This document shows, piece after piece, positions 41,113 through 49,200 of a stretch of 64,000 nt of DNA. The notes under the pieces were generated by a model. That model was not told where the DNA came from and did not search any database. It was given only the letters and a program-made list of their open reading frames with translations. Positions within the stretch are counted from its first letter, which is position 1; each line of letters begins with the position of its first letter. The stretch comes from Rhodocollybia butyracea (Eukaryota; Basidiomycota; Agaricomycetes; Agaricales; Omphalotaceae), in contig JADNRY010000176.1 of assembly GCA_015501585.1 (NCBI GenBank), forward strand, positions 1 through 64,000, given 5' to 3'. The position numbers were made by a program, and so were the translations under genes.

Positions 41113-41255
41113 TTAAGGCTGAGATTCATAGTCAGGCGGATGATCAGTCACAATTTCTTCCATTCTCTGGACCCGTTCTATTAGTTCAGATACCTGTTGA
41201 CGTAGTGTATCCTCCTCTCCATGGACACTGCCTAATAGTGCTTCCCGTGTAATAC
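41113..41255 (-). pseudogene. Single-pass membrane protein, last exon part (severed by the Mutator-like element)
   Basis: Reads REALLGSVHGEEDTL, then QQVSELIERVQRMEEIV and TDHPPDYESQP before the TAA at 41113. With one copy of GTGTAATAC removed it joins in frame to 49262-49201 (IRSKRSRMLG, then MAAQEELRIT). It ends like the paralogue at 59098-60167 (LERLQRMEEVV, DHPPDYDSQA), which shows the reading is right. Confidence 0.72.
41247..41255. repeat. 9-bp target site duplication, left copy
   Basis: GTGTAATAC, repeated at 49192-49200. Confidence 0.88.
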
Positions 41256-41265
41256 CGGCCTGTAT

Positions 41266-41460
41266 AATTTGGAGTCAGGGTAGTGAGTTTGGAGTCACGA
41301 TGGTGAGTCTTGAGTATATTTAATTTGCGTTTGCGTCAAAACTTTCGAGTTTGAGTCAGTTGAGTCAAAAAGATTTGAGTATGAGTCTATTTGATTTGAG
41401 TATGAGTTAACTCGATTGGCGTATGAGTTTACTTGATTGGAGTCTGAGTAAAAATGGTAT
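41266..41460. repeat. Left subterminal array of GAGTCA/GAGTTTGAG motifs
   Basis: About a dozen loosely spaced GAGTC, GAGTTTG and GATTTGAGTATGAG units. Read inverted these are TGACTC and CAAACTC, as in the right array. Likely transposase binding sites. Confidence 0.65.
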
Positions 41461-41977: not shown

Positions 41978-44900
41978 ATGAGTTGGTTTGTAAGTCGCCA
42001 AGCAAAGAAATACAGTTAAAGTAATAATGTAATTACCAGACTCAGCTCCGCAAGTACATTGCCAATGCAATTTACCCCAACAATCCAGAGGCACATTCGG
42101 CACCTCCTGTGCCGCCTCCTGCCACTGCCTTTGACACACTTCCACTGTTCAACGAGAACGGTATGTTTTTGAAATGTGTAGTGTGAATCATAGGTTAATA
42201 TTGTTATAATAGGTATACAAATTGGCTTTCAACGGGTCCCTCACAATGCTACCGCACAGTTGAACATGCCGCCTGCTTTGGGTACCTTGGCTGGACCTCC
42301 AAAAATTGCTACAAGCACTTCACGGCCTCCCACTGCTCCAGTTGTCACCGCTCCCCAACCTCGAAACTGGACAGAAATCCCATCCTTTGATCTCACCAAC
42401 CCTGCTTTGCAAACTTCGTTCATTCCACTAGATCCTCAACCCCCTTCAGAAACCCAGTTGGATCAAGGTGTGATTGCTACCTCGTTGGAGAATCTAAATG
42501 GTGGGGAGTGGGACCCCTGGGTTAATGGGCGCTTTTGGATGGATCTGAATTACACAGAGCTTCTTGACACCAAGCGGGTTGCAGTGCACTGGGCTACCAA
42601 AGGAAACTCTTCATATAATGGCAAAGGTTCTATCCACTCTCCTGACATTGCAGGGGGAAAAGTCCGTAACAAAAAATGTCTGGGTGTTTTATGCTGCACC
42701 AATGAAGACTGCAACTACATCGGCCGACCTCAAGTGACACCTGGAGGCCTTCAAAAGCAACTTGACGACCAGTGTCCATCCTGCTCTTCTGCGCTCAGTC
42801 ATGAGACTTGTGCATCACGATCCTACATTATTCAGTGGGGACAAGTTGGGAATGACATATCCACTTCACAGTACCGTTACATAAATGGATTTGCTCATAC
42901 TCACAGCCGCATTCCAAATGTTGCCCGCACTACCTCTGCTGAAGATAAACGGTTCACATCCACATACTCAAATCGCCCTAAGGTAACACCTACACAGCTC
43001 ATGGTTGGTCCTGCTGCTCCAGAAGGATTTGGGCCTGGAGCTGCCGAGTTGGGTCAGAAGTTTGCCAGTCAAGCGTACACAGGTTACCGCTTGCGTCAGG
43101 AGAAGAAGAAAAATGGTAATGGTCCAACTAGTGCATTTGGGACCTTTGAAAAACTGCAGCAGTGGAAGCAGAAACACCCTGATGCTACCTGCAAGGATTT
43201 TGTCAGCAATGACATTGTTTGTATTACATTGCAGACGGACTGGATGAGGCAGCAGCTGATGCCTGATATGTCAGGGGTTTCCGAGCCACTGGGTGGATTG
43301 CTTACGGATGCTGCCCATAAATACTGGGATGATCCTAATGGCCGCCTGATTGTCACCTCGATCTACTCTCCCCTCATTCAAAAATGGGTTCCGGTTCTTT
43401 TTTCCTATGCCAATGGTTCCACTGCTGCTCATTATGAGTACCACTTCTTGATCCTTATTGAAAGCATTGCTGAGGTGGCAGCTGAGAGAGGCATCTCCAT
43501 CAGTGATGAACATCTGGTTGGGGTCAGTTTTTCTGAAATCTGTATATGACCCCTTTCAGTGACTGATTGAATCTTCAGGTTGTTGACTTCAGTGATCCAG
43601 AGCGGATTGGCTTTCAAGATGCTTATTGTACCTATTTCCTCGCCCAACCTAATGATCCCCGCTTGGAAGAACAGCTGAGAGCTGCTGCGAAAAAGTTGCT
43701 GAAAGGCTGTCTCTATCACTATCTCAAAGCTGTTGAGCGGATTGCAAAGATGTCAACAATGGTTGATCCAAACACCAAATCAGAATTTCGAGTGCTTGCT
43801 GCATCTCTTCCCAAGCTCCAAACTCCTGCCGAGTTTCATGATGCAGTACTACAAATCCAACAGAAATGGCCCCGCGCATCCAGTTGGTTGAACTGGTGGC
43901 TCAACATAGATCATGCAGCAATGTTGTTTGAGTGTATGCGTGCAATGCCATCACACCTTGCTTCCAAGCTTCCAGAAACCACTAATCCAGAAGAGGCTAT
44001 ACATGCTAATATCCACCGTGCAGTTGGTAAAAACCATCCTTTTTTTGCCGGCTTGGATGGACTGTTGGTTGTTATCAAATGGTACCGACAGCAAGTACAG
44101 AATGCTCAGTGTATATCTCCTTTCCATCAATTTTTATCCTTTGGTTGACGTTTCTGCTGCAGTGGGAATCAAAAATCATTACGGAAAGTCTGGTCAAGAA
44201 GTGCGAAAGGCTCTGAAAGCAAAATTTGGAACAACACACCCTAGCCGTAAATATCCTAAGGCAAAGGCAAGGGAGCGGCGCAAAGGGCGTAATGAAGGAA
44301 ACCCCCCATACAGGCCAAGGAAGACTATTTCTCGCCTACGTTGCTCTAAAAAACCCATTATCTCCCCTCTCAGAAAACGGAACCATCTGGCAAAATCTTC
44401 CACACATCATCGCAGTTCACATCAGCTCGTCAATTCTGAGTCAAGCACTGACTCTACTTATCTCCCTGAATCTCACACACACTCAGACTCATCCACATCT
44501 CTTGACTCCGCGTCTGTCAATGATTCAGGTTCAGATGCACCTCCTAATCCTTCAAAAGAGCAGAGTACCCTGATAGGGGCGCAGCAGAAGCTAAGGCACA
44601 TGTCACCTTCTAAACTGAATGCTAAGTCAGCTGAAAGCCAGTTCCATGCTATACAACTATCGACCATGCATGAGCTTCCTGGCCCGGCATGGACTAATAA
44701 TTCCTGTTGGCTAGATTCTTCCATGGAGGCTCTTTTCTGTCCAATGGCCTTTTATGGTAGTTTGGCAGAGTTCAAATCCATTATCACTACTGCCGAAGAA
44801 GATCCATCTTCACCAAGTCCTCTATACTGCTTGTATCTCGCATTTCAGTTCCGTATGGCAGAAGGAATCAATAAATTCCAGCGCCCTAGCCTTGGCCCTG

Positions 44901-47698
44901 TTTCTCCCTTCCGGCAGCCTGCAGAAGAAATCACTAACATCCGGGATGCCTTCCGTAAAGTTCTCCATGAAACCCACACTGTAGAGGGAAAAGTCGGAGC
45001 ATATCAGATGCCTTTGGTAAATCAAAAAAAAAATGCCCTAGTCAATTTTGTGATAACATTTTTCTGTCAGGGATGGCTTGACAATCTTCTTCCAAACAAC
45101 TCACCAGCTTGTGACTTTTTCAAACCACACAGTTTGCAGTTCTGGAAATGTATGCATGAGGGGACCGGAATGCAGCACTGTCTTATTACCCCTCATATAA
45201 AACCAATTGGTTGGTCTCCATTAGGACGACAGTGGGATCAGTATCATGGGAAGATCCAAAGTTGGTTCTCTTTCCTATGTCAACCCAGTCTAGCTATTAC
45301 AGTGAAGGAAGACTCTGGTTGCTGGAGAAAAGAAACAGAGAAAGATGAGATTGTTGGAGTTTGTCCAGGAAGCTCCCAAGTCATTGAGCTCTTAACGGAG
45401 ATCCCAGTAATCCTAATCATCACACCAGATGTCACAGTAGGCAAGTATCCATTAAATTTCCTCTTTGCAAATGTCTCATATCCAGCAGAAAAATACTGGG
45501 ATTTTCCCATGCAACTTTTGCCCGGATCAGAAGCTGCAGCAAAAAAAGGAGTTGTTTATGAGCTAGTCTCACGTATCTTCTTTGGCCATCAGCACTACAC
45601 TACCCATATGGCAATTCCCACTACTTCAAAAGCCAAGGCCGTTTTTATACATGATGGGATGATGTTCCAAGGATATTCTCAGCATTCAAAAGGCAAGGTT
45701 GCAGATTTGCTTGCTGGAGCTCATCCTCCCTGTGCATCCGGATTTACAACCTTTTCGGCTATCTACAAGCTCAAAGGGGGGGTTGATGCTCAGCAGAAGT
45801 TTCGAGTACAACAACAGGTTGAGATCAAAAACACACTTGACATCAACATAGAAAACCAACCTATTCCAGCTCTTGATTCTCCTAATTGGATTCCATGCTC
45901 CACCTCCTCAAAACGTTCCCGGGAGTACAACTTTACCTCGTCTGGTGTACCTACCAAACTCTTTGTTGATGCCCCCTTTCCTACACTGGATGGACCAAGT
46001 GGGGACGACTTTCAACTTGGTGATCCAACATATCTCTCAGATGACTCAGAGTCCATCACTCACCTCCTTTTGAGTACACTAGAAAATGAGTTCACATCCC
46101 CTGCCCCAGTCATATCCACCGACAGTAACCTCAGCATCTCAAGCTCTCCTCTACCATCTTCACCTCATCATATACTCTGCAGATGTGGTGTTGAATCAAA
46201 TGGATATAGAGAGAGCATTGAACAGATGACTGTTCAATGCGCAATCTGCAAAAATTACACCCACACAGGTTGCATCACCATGCGTTTCAATGGCCAAATT
46301 CCGAAGCATTTTGAATGTGATGACTGCAGATTTCCTGAAGTCCAACATGTTCTTAGGGATGGCTTTGCACACTTCAGAAATACCCTACCAGGCCTACGAA
46401 AGCAGAAGCTAGCTAGCATTGCAAACCGTCTGTTGTGAGTTTTAAGCATTAATAATTCCCCAATTGAATTCTAAAATTATTAAAGTCCTGGAAAGGGCAT
46501 ACTGGTTTGCCAAGGAGGTACATACTATTATCCAGCTCGACTGATTGCATGGGATAAAAAATTAAAGACTGGAACTGTTGAGATGTGGCGGGGTATTCAA
46601 TCTCCAGCAGCAGCAAGGGGAATAATTGATAATGTCAGTTTACCTGATATAGTTGATGGGCTATGGCAAGATCAAGATGGACGTCGCACAATTCAGGTAA
46701 GAAGTACAATAATTCAGAGTTGCCAGTTGCTTTTATTGATCTAGACATAGTTGGGATCATATATCCGTCCACTTGAAGAGCAGATTCATAAGCAAGAAGC
46801 AGAAGATGATCTCCTTGTAAACCCAACCACAGTCAGATGCAGCAGTGAAATAGCAGCTGTGCTTCAGCCACACCGGGTTCTTCTTATGGAGTTGGCTATT
46901 AATCCAGAGAAGTTTTCACTAAAACAAGTACCTGCTCTTGCTCTCCAAAACTCCAAAGACCTAATCAGCGGAAATGCTACATATTACACTGGGGGACTAT
47001 TGGCTACACAGGTAGCAGAGATAAATAATTGGATACATACAAAAATTCCCATGGCAGACAAACTAGATATCAACATGATGCTTAGACCTACTATAGGACA
47101 TGCTCGTACTCTTGTTGTAGCACATCTATTTCGCTCTGAGTTCATGGGTGATATTGAAGATGGGACTCTAGAGCAAAAGGTGCTGGAAAAGGCTTGGAAG
47201 AGATTGAAGGACTGGACTGGGCGCACAACTACTGGGAAGCCAAGGCCAAAAATTGTTGATGTCAACTTTGAGGCTATCAGTCTGTTGGATAAAATTATGT
47301 TTGATGAATCAGAACGAGCAGGGGCTGCAGGAAACCATCAGTGGGGTTTGGACATTGGACCACACGAGCTTGCTTGGACTCCTCAAATCAATCACCATTC
47401 TGTCACTACAGACAAACGCAGAGATGGAAAAGATGAAGAAACCTTGGTATGTTTTATTCCGGTATTTCATTTTCTAATCCTTATTAACCTGTGGCACTTG
47501 TTATAGCATGGGAAAAACTATGATTTTGTTGCGGAACAGTATGAGATGGAACGTGCAAAGGAGCGCAGAAATAACCAGCAAGCTAGGTCAAAGGCTCCAA
47601 AGAGAAAGAAGCCAGAAGTGACACCTGCAGAGGATACTAGTAAAGAGAGGAAAGAAAGGCCGACTCGCAATCCCAAACGGACCCGACTCCATCAATGA
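41978..47698 (+). CDS. 1781-aa MULE transposase fused to USP-like protease, PHD finger and Tudor-like module
   Basis: Exons 41978-41989, 42040-42160, 42213-43522, 43579-44110, 44163-46434, 46486-46696, 46751-47446 and 47507-47698 join in phase to 5346 nt without a stop. Start: MSWF then TQLRKYIANAIYPNN. Domains: Pro-rich N terminus; WRKY/GCM1-like finger with Cys200, 205/206, 211, 232, 235, 244 and the His pair HTH at 273-275; MULE transposase with Asp410 (GGLLTDAAH), Asp484 (VVDFSDPERIGF), Cys525-x2-His528 (GCLYHYLKAVERI) and Glu619/620 (TTNPEEAIH); basic Ser-rich linker; C19/USP-like protease with Cys840 (TNNSCWLDSSMEALF), His1136 (HQHYTTHM) and Asp1156 (IHDGM); PHD finger, Cys1331 to Cys1380 in C4HC3 spacing; Tudor/chromo-like YYYPARLIAWDKK at about 1427; helical and basic C terminus. 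The transposase should cut and paste the element; the protease and readers may protect it or target chromatin (inference). Catalytic residues all present. Confidence 0.85.
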
Positions 47699-48439: not shown

Positions 48440-49190
48440 ACAATACAACTCAAGCAACTCCAATAAAACTCAAGTGACTCCAATTAAACTCAAGTGACTC
48501 CAATTAAACTCAAGTGACTCCAATAAAACTCAAGTGACTCGTACTTGACTCACTCAACTCTAATAAAACTCAAATGACTCCGAGTTAAATTTTTTAGTGT
48601 GACTCAAGCTTGACTCAAGCTTGACTCACTGAACTCCAATGTAACTCAAGTGACTCAAATATAAATATGAGTCAAACATTTGAGTCACTTGAGTTTGAGT
48701 ATACTCAAGTCCTTGACTCAACTTGACTCAATTTGACTCAATTTGACTCAACTTGACTCAACTTGACTCACTTGACTTTTTAACATTTGAGTTCAAGTCA
48801 AGTGCGTATAAATTTGGAGTAAGTGGAGTCAAGAGTTATAACATTTTCACTCTGAGTTGGTGAAATGTTTTAGATATTCCGTGTCCAGTATTACTTTAGG
48901 ATAACTAGAGTTTGTTATCCATTGGTATCTAGATAGCTTTGTACACTGCGAAGCTCATTGATGGGTGTATTGATCCCATCAAAGCAACTTATGCTAAGGT
49001 AAAGACGGTGAGCGGCGAGAATCCCAACCAGAAAACATTCAGCACACTGTTCAGGCTGTAGTACACAATTATACATATTATTTGACATTGTGTAAGTGAA
49101 CGACTAGGTACTTATGATTTAAGTAGTTGACTCTAATAAATTTGCGTCAAGACTCAAGACTCACATGCCTGACTCCAAATTCTACCTACC
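48440..49190. repeat. Right subterminal array of TTGACTCAA / AAGTGACTCCAAT units
   Basis: Tandem and near-tandem units: AACTCAAGTGACTCCAAT is repeated about five times around 48445-48540, and TTGACTCAA(T/C) about eight times around 48715-48780, with further TGACTC copies up to the right end. The core TTGACT matches the W-box (TTGAC followed by C or T) and TGACTCA also matches the Gcn4/AP-1 site. Confidence 0.85.
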
Positions 49191-49191
49191 G

Positions 49192-49200
49192 GTGTAATAC
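49192..49200. repeat. 9-bp target site duplication, right copy
   Basis: GTGTAATAC directly after the right end of the Mutator-like element. Confidence 0.88.

Follow-up and report, generated by a model that had tools for sequence, protein, structure and literature searches.

DNA transposons are known to encode proteases of the Ulp1, OTU and VTD types and, in one protist protein, of the Peptidase C19 type, as described in the accessible portions of three reports (PMC2528002, PMC9741609, PMC2836005). Ginger1 transposases carry Ulp1 or OTU, with Ulp1 and a PHD finger together in one family (Ginger1-9_HM; Bao et al. 2010, PMC2836005), and the available text of the same paper reports Mutator transposases with Ulp1, a figure in which, according to its legend, Ginger1 and Mutator transposases are aligned over their Ulp1 and PHD domains, and a Trichomonas protein joining Transposase_11 to Peptidase C19. 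Accessible descriptions further place Ulp1, a ULP-type protease, in plant Mutator-like elements (MULEs) including Kaonashi (PMC2528002), OTU or VTD in Helitrons (PMC9741609), and a PHD finger alongside a minisatellite in Rehavkus, reported from arthropods and annelids (PMC6446971). Outside transposons, USPL1 (peptidase C98) is described, in the available text, as a SUMO enzyme with a USP fold, a CWLD Cys box and no blocking loops (PMC8983731).

Here, we analyzed a 64,000-nucleotide stretch of the Rhodocollybia butyracea genome (contig JADNRY010000176.1, positions 1 to 64,000; "the window"), which lies in a 95.6-Mb assembly of 1381 contigs. Our best explanation of the locus at 41978-47698 (forward strand), with a probability of about 0.68 when its proposed action is included, is a cut-and-paste transposon of MULE type, complete and recently mobile, whose one gene encodes a 1763-residue transposase with a USP-fold isopeptidase, a PHD finger and a Tudor-like barrel. 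As the original prediction had proposed, a MULE-type transposase, a USP-like rather than Ulp1-like protease fold, a PHD finger and a Tudor-like module are found in one predicted chain.

Gene structure and selection

Spliced at GT-AG sites, the chain is open and in phase over nine exons and 1763 residues, and our own splice agrees with public model P0005 (BDP27DRAFT_1428067) at every letter. The original prediction of an intact fusion thus stands for the open reading, but not for its eight exons and 1781 residues, which retained a 54-nt intron (45017-45070) as coding. This segment is in frame here but measures 52 nt, not a multiple of three, in the sister copy C639, and is excised in P0005; hence, we treat it as an intron. 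Its identity to C639 (0.79) is below that of the neighboring exons (0.84, 0.86), and its GT and AG are retained, as are those of all 8 introns in both C639 and C440.

The start codon lies in exon 1 (41978-41989), followed by exon 2 (42040-42160). Exon 3 (42213-43522) encodes a GCM-like zinc region (residues 194-248, 42659-42823) and D410 (43307-43309), and exon 4 (43579-44110) the transposase residues D484, C525-x2-H528 and E620. Exon 5 (44163-45016) holds the transposase end, a linker and the USP start with Cys 840 (44705-44707), while exon 6 (45071-46434) contains the remaining USP domain, with His 1118 (45593-45595) and Asp 1138 (45653-45655), and the PHD finger (46178-46327). The Tudor-like barrel (residues about 1392-1458) begins in exon 6, at 46415, and ends near 46666 in exon 7 (46486-46696), and exons 8 (46751-47446) and 9 (47507-47698) encode a conserved, predicted helical C-terminal region and a basic tail, respectively.

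Comparison of the window copy with C639 (Nei-Gojobori, 1740 codons) gave a dS of 0.402 and a dN of 0.085 for the whole chain, a ratio of nonsynonymous to synonymous divergence (dN/dS) of 0.21. By part, this ratio was 0.14 for the transposase, 0.18 for USP, 0.14 for PHD, 0.18 for the C-terminal region, 0.35 and 0.30 for two linkers, and 0.42 for both the tail and the Tudor-like module, the latter value being based on 8 synonymous vs 11 nonsynonymous changes. Every indel in the two linkers is a multiple of three (8/8), which, together with the overall ratio, argues that the open chain is not due to chance. C639 is itself broken, since it contains stops in register and one or more frame-shifting indels, so that these ratios average over its functional past. 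The comparison indicates that the chain is under purifying selection, and it would be carried on one transcript across the nine predicted exons.

The same linker indels speak against a fusion of neighboring genes in the model, in which the transposase and the protease-PHD-Tudor part would be made as separate proteins, as do exon 5, which spans the transposase end, the linker and the Cys box without a stop, and models from Collybiopsis confluens, Coniophora and Mycena that are single proteins with both transposase and USP. This alternative, which we consider very improbable, draws on the fact that all exon joins are predicted and on two proteins annotated without a transposase, from Lentinula (P0002, 882 aa) and Collybiopsis luxurians (P0013, 634 aa); P0002 is probably a truncated model, because its start lies just past the Cys box.

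Ends and copies of the element

The element ends at 41256 and 49191, boundaries that were absent from the original prediction. A 9-bp target-site duplication, GTGTAATAC, occupies 41247-41255 and is perfectly repeated at 49192-49200, immediately outside terminal inverted repeats at 41256-41279 (CGGCCTGTATAATTTGGAGTCAGG) and 49168-49191; these are imperfect inverses of each other (20/24 bases) and shorter than in many MULEs. DNA comparison between the window and 18 regions fetched from the same genome placed the limits of similarity at 41251 and 49191. Perfect 9-bp duplications also flank C519 (TGCGTGTAA), C589 (GGCATGAGT), C440 (CCCCGAATA) and C639 (TGCCATATC), i.e. 5/5 copies with both ends read, the window included. 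The left end has at least 22 genome matches, counting the window, and the window copy is 98.7-98.9% identical to C440 and C519 over long aligned stretches. The R. butyracea element is probably autonomous.

Arrays of short motifs in inverted sense adjoin both ends, recalling Rehavkus: a GAGTC-rich array at 41268-41453 on the left, and a subterminal minisatellite of a 20-mer (CAATAAAACTCAAGTGACTC) and a 10-mer (CTTGACTCAA), mostly GACTC, at 48441-48777 on the right. GAGTC/GACTC is denser at both ends (left 23 per kb, right 18 per kb) than inside the element (2.1) or in the flanks (2.1-2.9), and it reads GAGTC in 7/7 cases on the left and GACTC in 23/27 on the right. These arrays are putative transposase binding sites.

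C589 (L048) is a 2,012-bp derivative with both ends intact, its own 9-bp duplication and only a short USP piece, and is probably a non-autonomous partner. C440 (L031, 99800-109700), 98.9% identical to the window, carries 32 small exonic indels vs about 18 codon substitutions, a pattern suggestive of errors left uncorrected in the assembly or of very recent decay.

A probable MULE-type transposase

MULEs are defined by a DDE core with C-x2-H ahead of the Glu. Alignment confirmed the predicted D410, D484, C525-x2-H528 and E620, which are kept wherever letters are present in 13 aligned members, with one gap at the first Asp and one at the second; the 9-bp target duplication (8-11 in MULEs) and the terminal inverted repeats are further MULE features of this element. 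The Pfam MULE model (PF10551) matched no family member, and its 11 places in the same genome never fell at family loci. A profile of 11 family members compared with 6 of these 11 places gave an E value of 6e-4 (probability 28%, 59 columns, first Asp in register), and values of 0.0054-0.51 against six single MULE sequences, while six column-shuffled controls ranged from 0.57 to 0.71. Combined with the 9-bp duplication, this weak match favors a MULE-type element of divergent sequence. The N-terminal region weakly resembles the GCM family, below the Pfam cut-off (E 1.2e-4 for the exon, 8e-4 for the full protein), and, according to the accessible text of PMC2528002, proteins derived from MULEs include some with WRKY-GCM1 zinc motifs.

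A USP-fold protease domain

Naming the protease by sequence was tried without success, as Pfam, PDB profile searches (weak matches USP12 and USP25, E 0.1-0.6) and hhalign returned no significant match, and the fold decided instead. Fold comparison identified the USP thumb-palm-fingers fold, and sequence alignment a triad in the order Cys-His-Asp. Cys 840 of the predicted triad was retained, whereas removal of 18 codons' worth of intron renumbers its His and Asp from 1136 and 1156 to H1118 and D1138; the catalytic Cys and His are kept in 13/13 members. Pfam C19 (UCH, PF00443) listed 1 of 15 members, below the cut-off (E 0.0057), and not the other 14; Pfam C98 (USPL1, PF15499) likewise listed 1 of 15 below the cut-off (E 0.037), and found nothing at E 1 in a six-frame search of the same genome without introns. 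In Ulp1 (C48) enzymes, the catalytic order is His-Asp-Cys, with Cys last. An Ulp1 identity was rejected, since Cys 840 precedes His 1118 and the profile comparison with a ULP1 sequence (E 0.34) falls inside the range of eight shuffled controls (E 0.048-0.66).

Fingers residues Cys-His-Cys-Cys at 970, 979, 1027 and 1041 (45149-45364) are kept in 13, 13, 12 and 12 of 13 members, with one gap. A pattern scan of viral contigs gave no match; in a viral fold library, giant-virus USPs match the protease, which we read as a shared fold only.

The original prediction of a deubiquitinase-type domain agrees with the conserved catalytic residues, but USPL1, a SUMO enzyme of the same fold that lacks blocking loops in the available description (PMC8983731), shares the CWLD Cys box of this family. 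A true deubiquitinase that would spare the transposase or repair factors breakdown by the proteasome, a role proposed for the herpesvirus-like VTD in Helitrons, is a serious possibility, though short of probable. Two features count against it: the Cys box differs from those of USP7 (CYMN), USP2 (CFMN), USP12 (CYCN) and USP25 (CWFS), and the spacing between a conserved Tyr and the catalytic His, measured by eye, is 12-14 residues in the family and 13 in USPL1, vs 16-17 in USP2, USP7 and USP12, which fits a missing blocking loop 2. Blocking-loop places also look short by eye in aligned relatives, whereas the window copy has an insert at the first loop. There (45440-45510), C639 has a 51-nt stretch with intron signals, omitted by its public model P0006; in the window the acceptor is gone, and 16 extra residues relative to the relatives are read through from this former intron in the USP BL1-like loop (about 45450-45500), with no alternative in-frame splice across the stretch among GT and AG positions inspected by eye. 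The near-identical C440 carries the same stretch, so this change need not have prevented recent mobility, whether in cis or in trans.

PHD finger and Tudor-like module

The PHD finger is complete, as predicted, with all eight C4HC3 ligands present (C1313, C1315, C1333, C1336, H1341, C1344, C1359, C1362). Its profile matches BYE1 (E 1.7e-7), while Pfam PHD models stay below their cut-off. The following module forms a modeled SH3-like barrel that matches Tudor structures, which makes a Tudor fold likely, and the alignment displays conserved aromatic residues around YYYP and the next Trp, candidates for an aromatic cage for methyl-lysine.

Distribution and co-inheritance

A protease search of the same genome yielded 30 six-frame matches, around which the 18 regions were fetched, so that protease presence in these regions is by selection. 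Hidden Markov model searches detected transposase parts in 15 of them, and PHD and Tudor parts in 10 of those 15; C552, C611 and C589 are without transposase parts. Public R. butyracea proteins in the family are P0005, P0001, P0006 and P0007, and full or partial relatives occur in Collybiopsis confluens, Coniophora puteana, Mycena latifolia, M. venus, Lentinula raphanica and Collybiopsis luxurians; a further homolog search yielded two more short proteins.

Trees of the transposase and USP domains were built from the same 13 members (5 proteins, 8 loci), leaving out the near-identical C440 and C519, eight partial or duplicate loci, and database proteins that are fragments or derive from the same loci. 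The two trees have 8 of 10 splits in common, and 10,000 label shuffles never gave more than 4, which indicates that the fusion was largely co-inherited. Coniophora belongs to another order, Boletales. The fusion therefore predates the split between orders or moved between species as a unit.

These trees, largely congruent across the Rhodocollybia, Collybiopsis, Mycena and Coniophora proteins, argue against protease and readers being passengers, i.e. a piece of a host gene that was captured and has lost its importance for transposition, as do the dN/dS values of USP (0.18) and PHD (0.14) and the invariant catalytic Cys and His. Such passengers, which we regard as unlikely, would be in keeping with the frequent capture of host sequence by MULEs noted in the available text of PMC2528002, with the tolerated read-through insert of the window copy, and with the loss of 473 bp of the USP region in C519 and of all but a short USP piece between the two ends of C589. 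These losses imply that both copies could be moved in trans.

Proposed action and its weighing

Within the preferred reading of a complete MULE-type transposon, we infer DNA binding, mark reading and isopeptidase activity, with its substrate and role, as follows. The GCM-like zinc region would bind the inverted GAGTC arrays at both ends, the DDE core would cut and join DNA with a 9-bp stagger, and the PHD finger and Tudor-like barrel would hold the complex on histone H3 marks. The USP domain would strip a tag, SUMO by our preference or else ubiquitin, either from the transposase or from chromatin and repair factors of the host at the site, and this tag removal could counter silencing or degradation. 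Action at the target or on its own transposase, as suggested in the original prediction, is likewise a proposal.

Several observations weigh against this reading. No Pfam family reached its cut-off for transposase, protease or PHD, and profile comparison fails to separate USPL1 (E 0.02) from USP2 (E 0.0055), with USP7 at 0.17 and the eight shuffled controls at 0.048-0.66. Trp after Cys is by itself no mark of USPL1, since USP25 shares it, and close USPL1 membership was rejected: the motifs are suggestive, but no cut-off was reached and USPL1 is absent among the 50 VIA matches listed. The Tudor model is mediocre (375 residues, mean predicted local distance difference test score 62.1), and the protease of the window copy may be weakened, as the 16 extra residues at the BL1-like loop are disordered in the structure model. 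Four loci with transposase and USP (C559, C1363, C1072 and C560; L035, L040, L041 and L044) gave no PHD or Tudor match, and C968 no Tudor match. Finally, 3 of the 8 common splits are close pairs, and Coniophora is placed differently in the two trees with 97% support each, which could reflect noise or domain exchange.

More tentatively, these elements might form a separate Mutator-type clade in mushroom-forming fungi, in which PHD and Tudor choose histone-marked targets, where SUMO-dependent silencing is disarmed through SUMO removal by a USPL1-like enzyme that was acquired separately from Ulp1. If so, this would represent a second, convergent route by which transposons acquire a deSUMOylase. 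More generally, a selected USP fold within a MULE-type transposase strengthens the case that transposition repeatedly calls for the removal of ubiquitin-like tags. Because one predicted chain holds reader, eraser and cutting enzyme, this long-suspected role becomes testable by mutating single residues within one reading frame.

Comparison with known systems

A MULE with USP, PHD and Tudor domains was not found in the literature searched, which did not extend to Repbase Reports and most subscription journals, so that its absence from print is unproven; the accessible text of PMC12730594 contains neither "protease" nor "PHD", and that of PMC9674265 covers hAT and other elements of Marasmius. As far as the available descriptions go, the closest parallels are Ginger1 and Mutator-Ulp1 transposases, which likewise combine, in a single chain, a DDE transposase and a C-terminal cysteine protease of isopeptidase type, accompanied in one case by a PHD finger. 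Their proteases are however of the Ulp1 (C48) or OTU type, unlike the USP fold found here with Cys before His, a Tudor-like barrel and a GCM-like region, and Ginger1 differs further by its Gypsy-type core and 4-bp duplications. By description only, Rehavkus shares the 9-bp target duplication, a PHD finger with the transposase and a minisatellite before the 3' inverted repeat, but no USP domain is mentioned in the available text (PMC6446971). Kaonashi and other ULP-bearing plant MULEs are similar in carrying a protease domain of ULP type, although the protease described for Kaonashi has the Ulp1 fold and lies in reverse orientation to the transposase, whereas here one chain holds a USP fold.

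For the protease itself, the described USPL1 (PMC8983731) shares the USP fold, CWLD, the Cys-His-Asp triad and, by eye, the short loops of the relatives; its fingers zinc is held by four Cys, unlike the Cys-His-Cys-Cys set of this family, which also stays below the Pfam C98 cut-off. The Trichomonas protein and the Helitrons resemble this element in placing a deubiquitinase-type domain in a transposon protein, but their transposase types are unrelated and no PHD or Tudor is mentioned in the portions available. Overall, the architecture that the original prediction had called distinct is so as a combination, whereas Ginger1 with Ulp1 and PHD, Mutator with Ulp1, and Transposase_11-Peptidase C19 had already been published (PMC2836005, available text).

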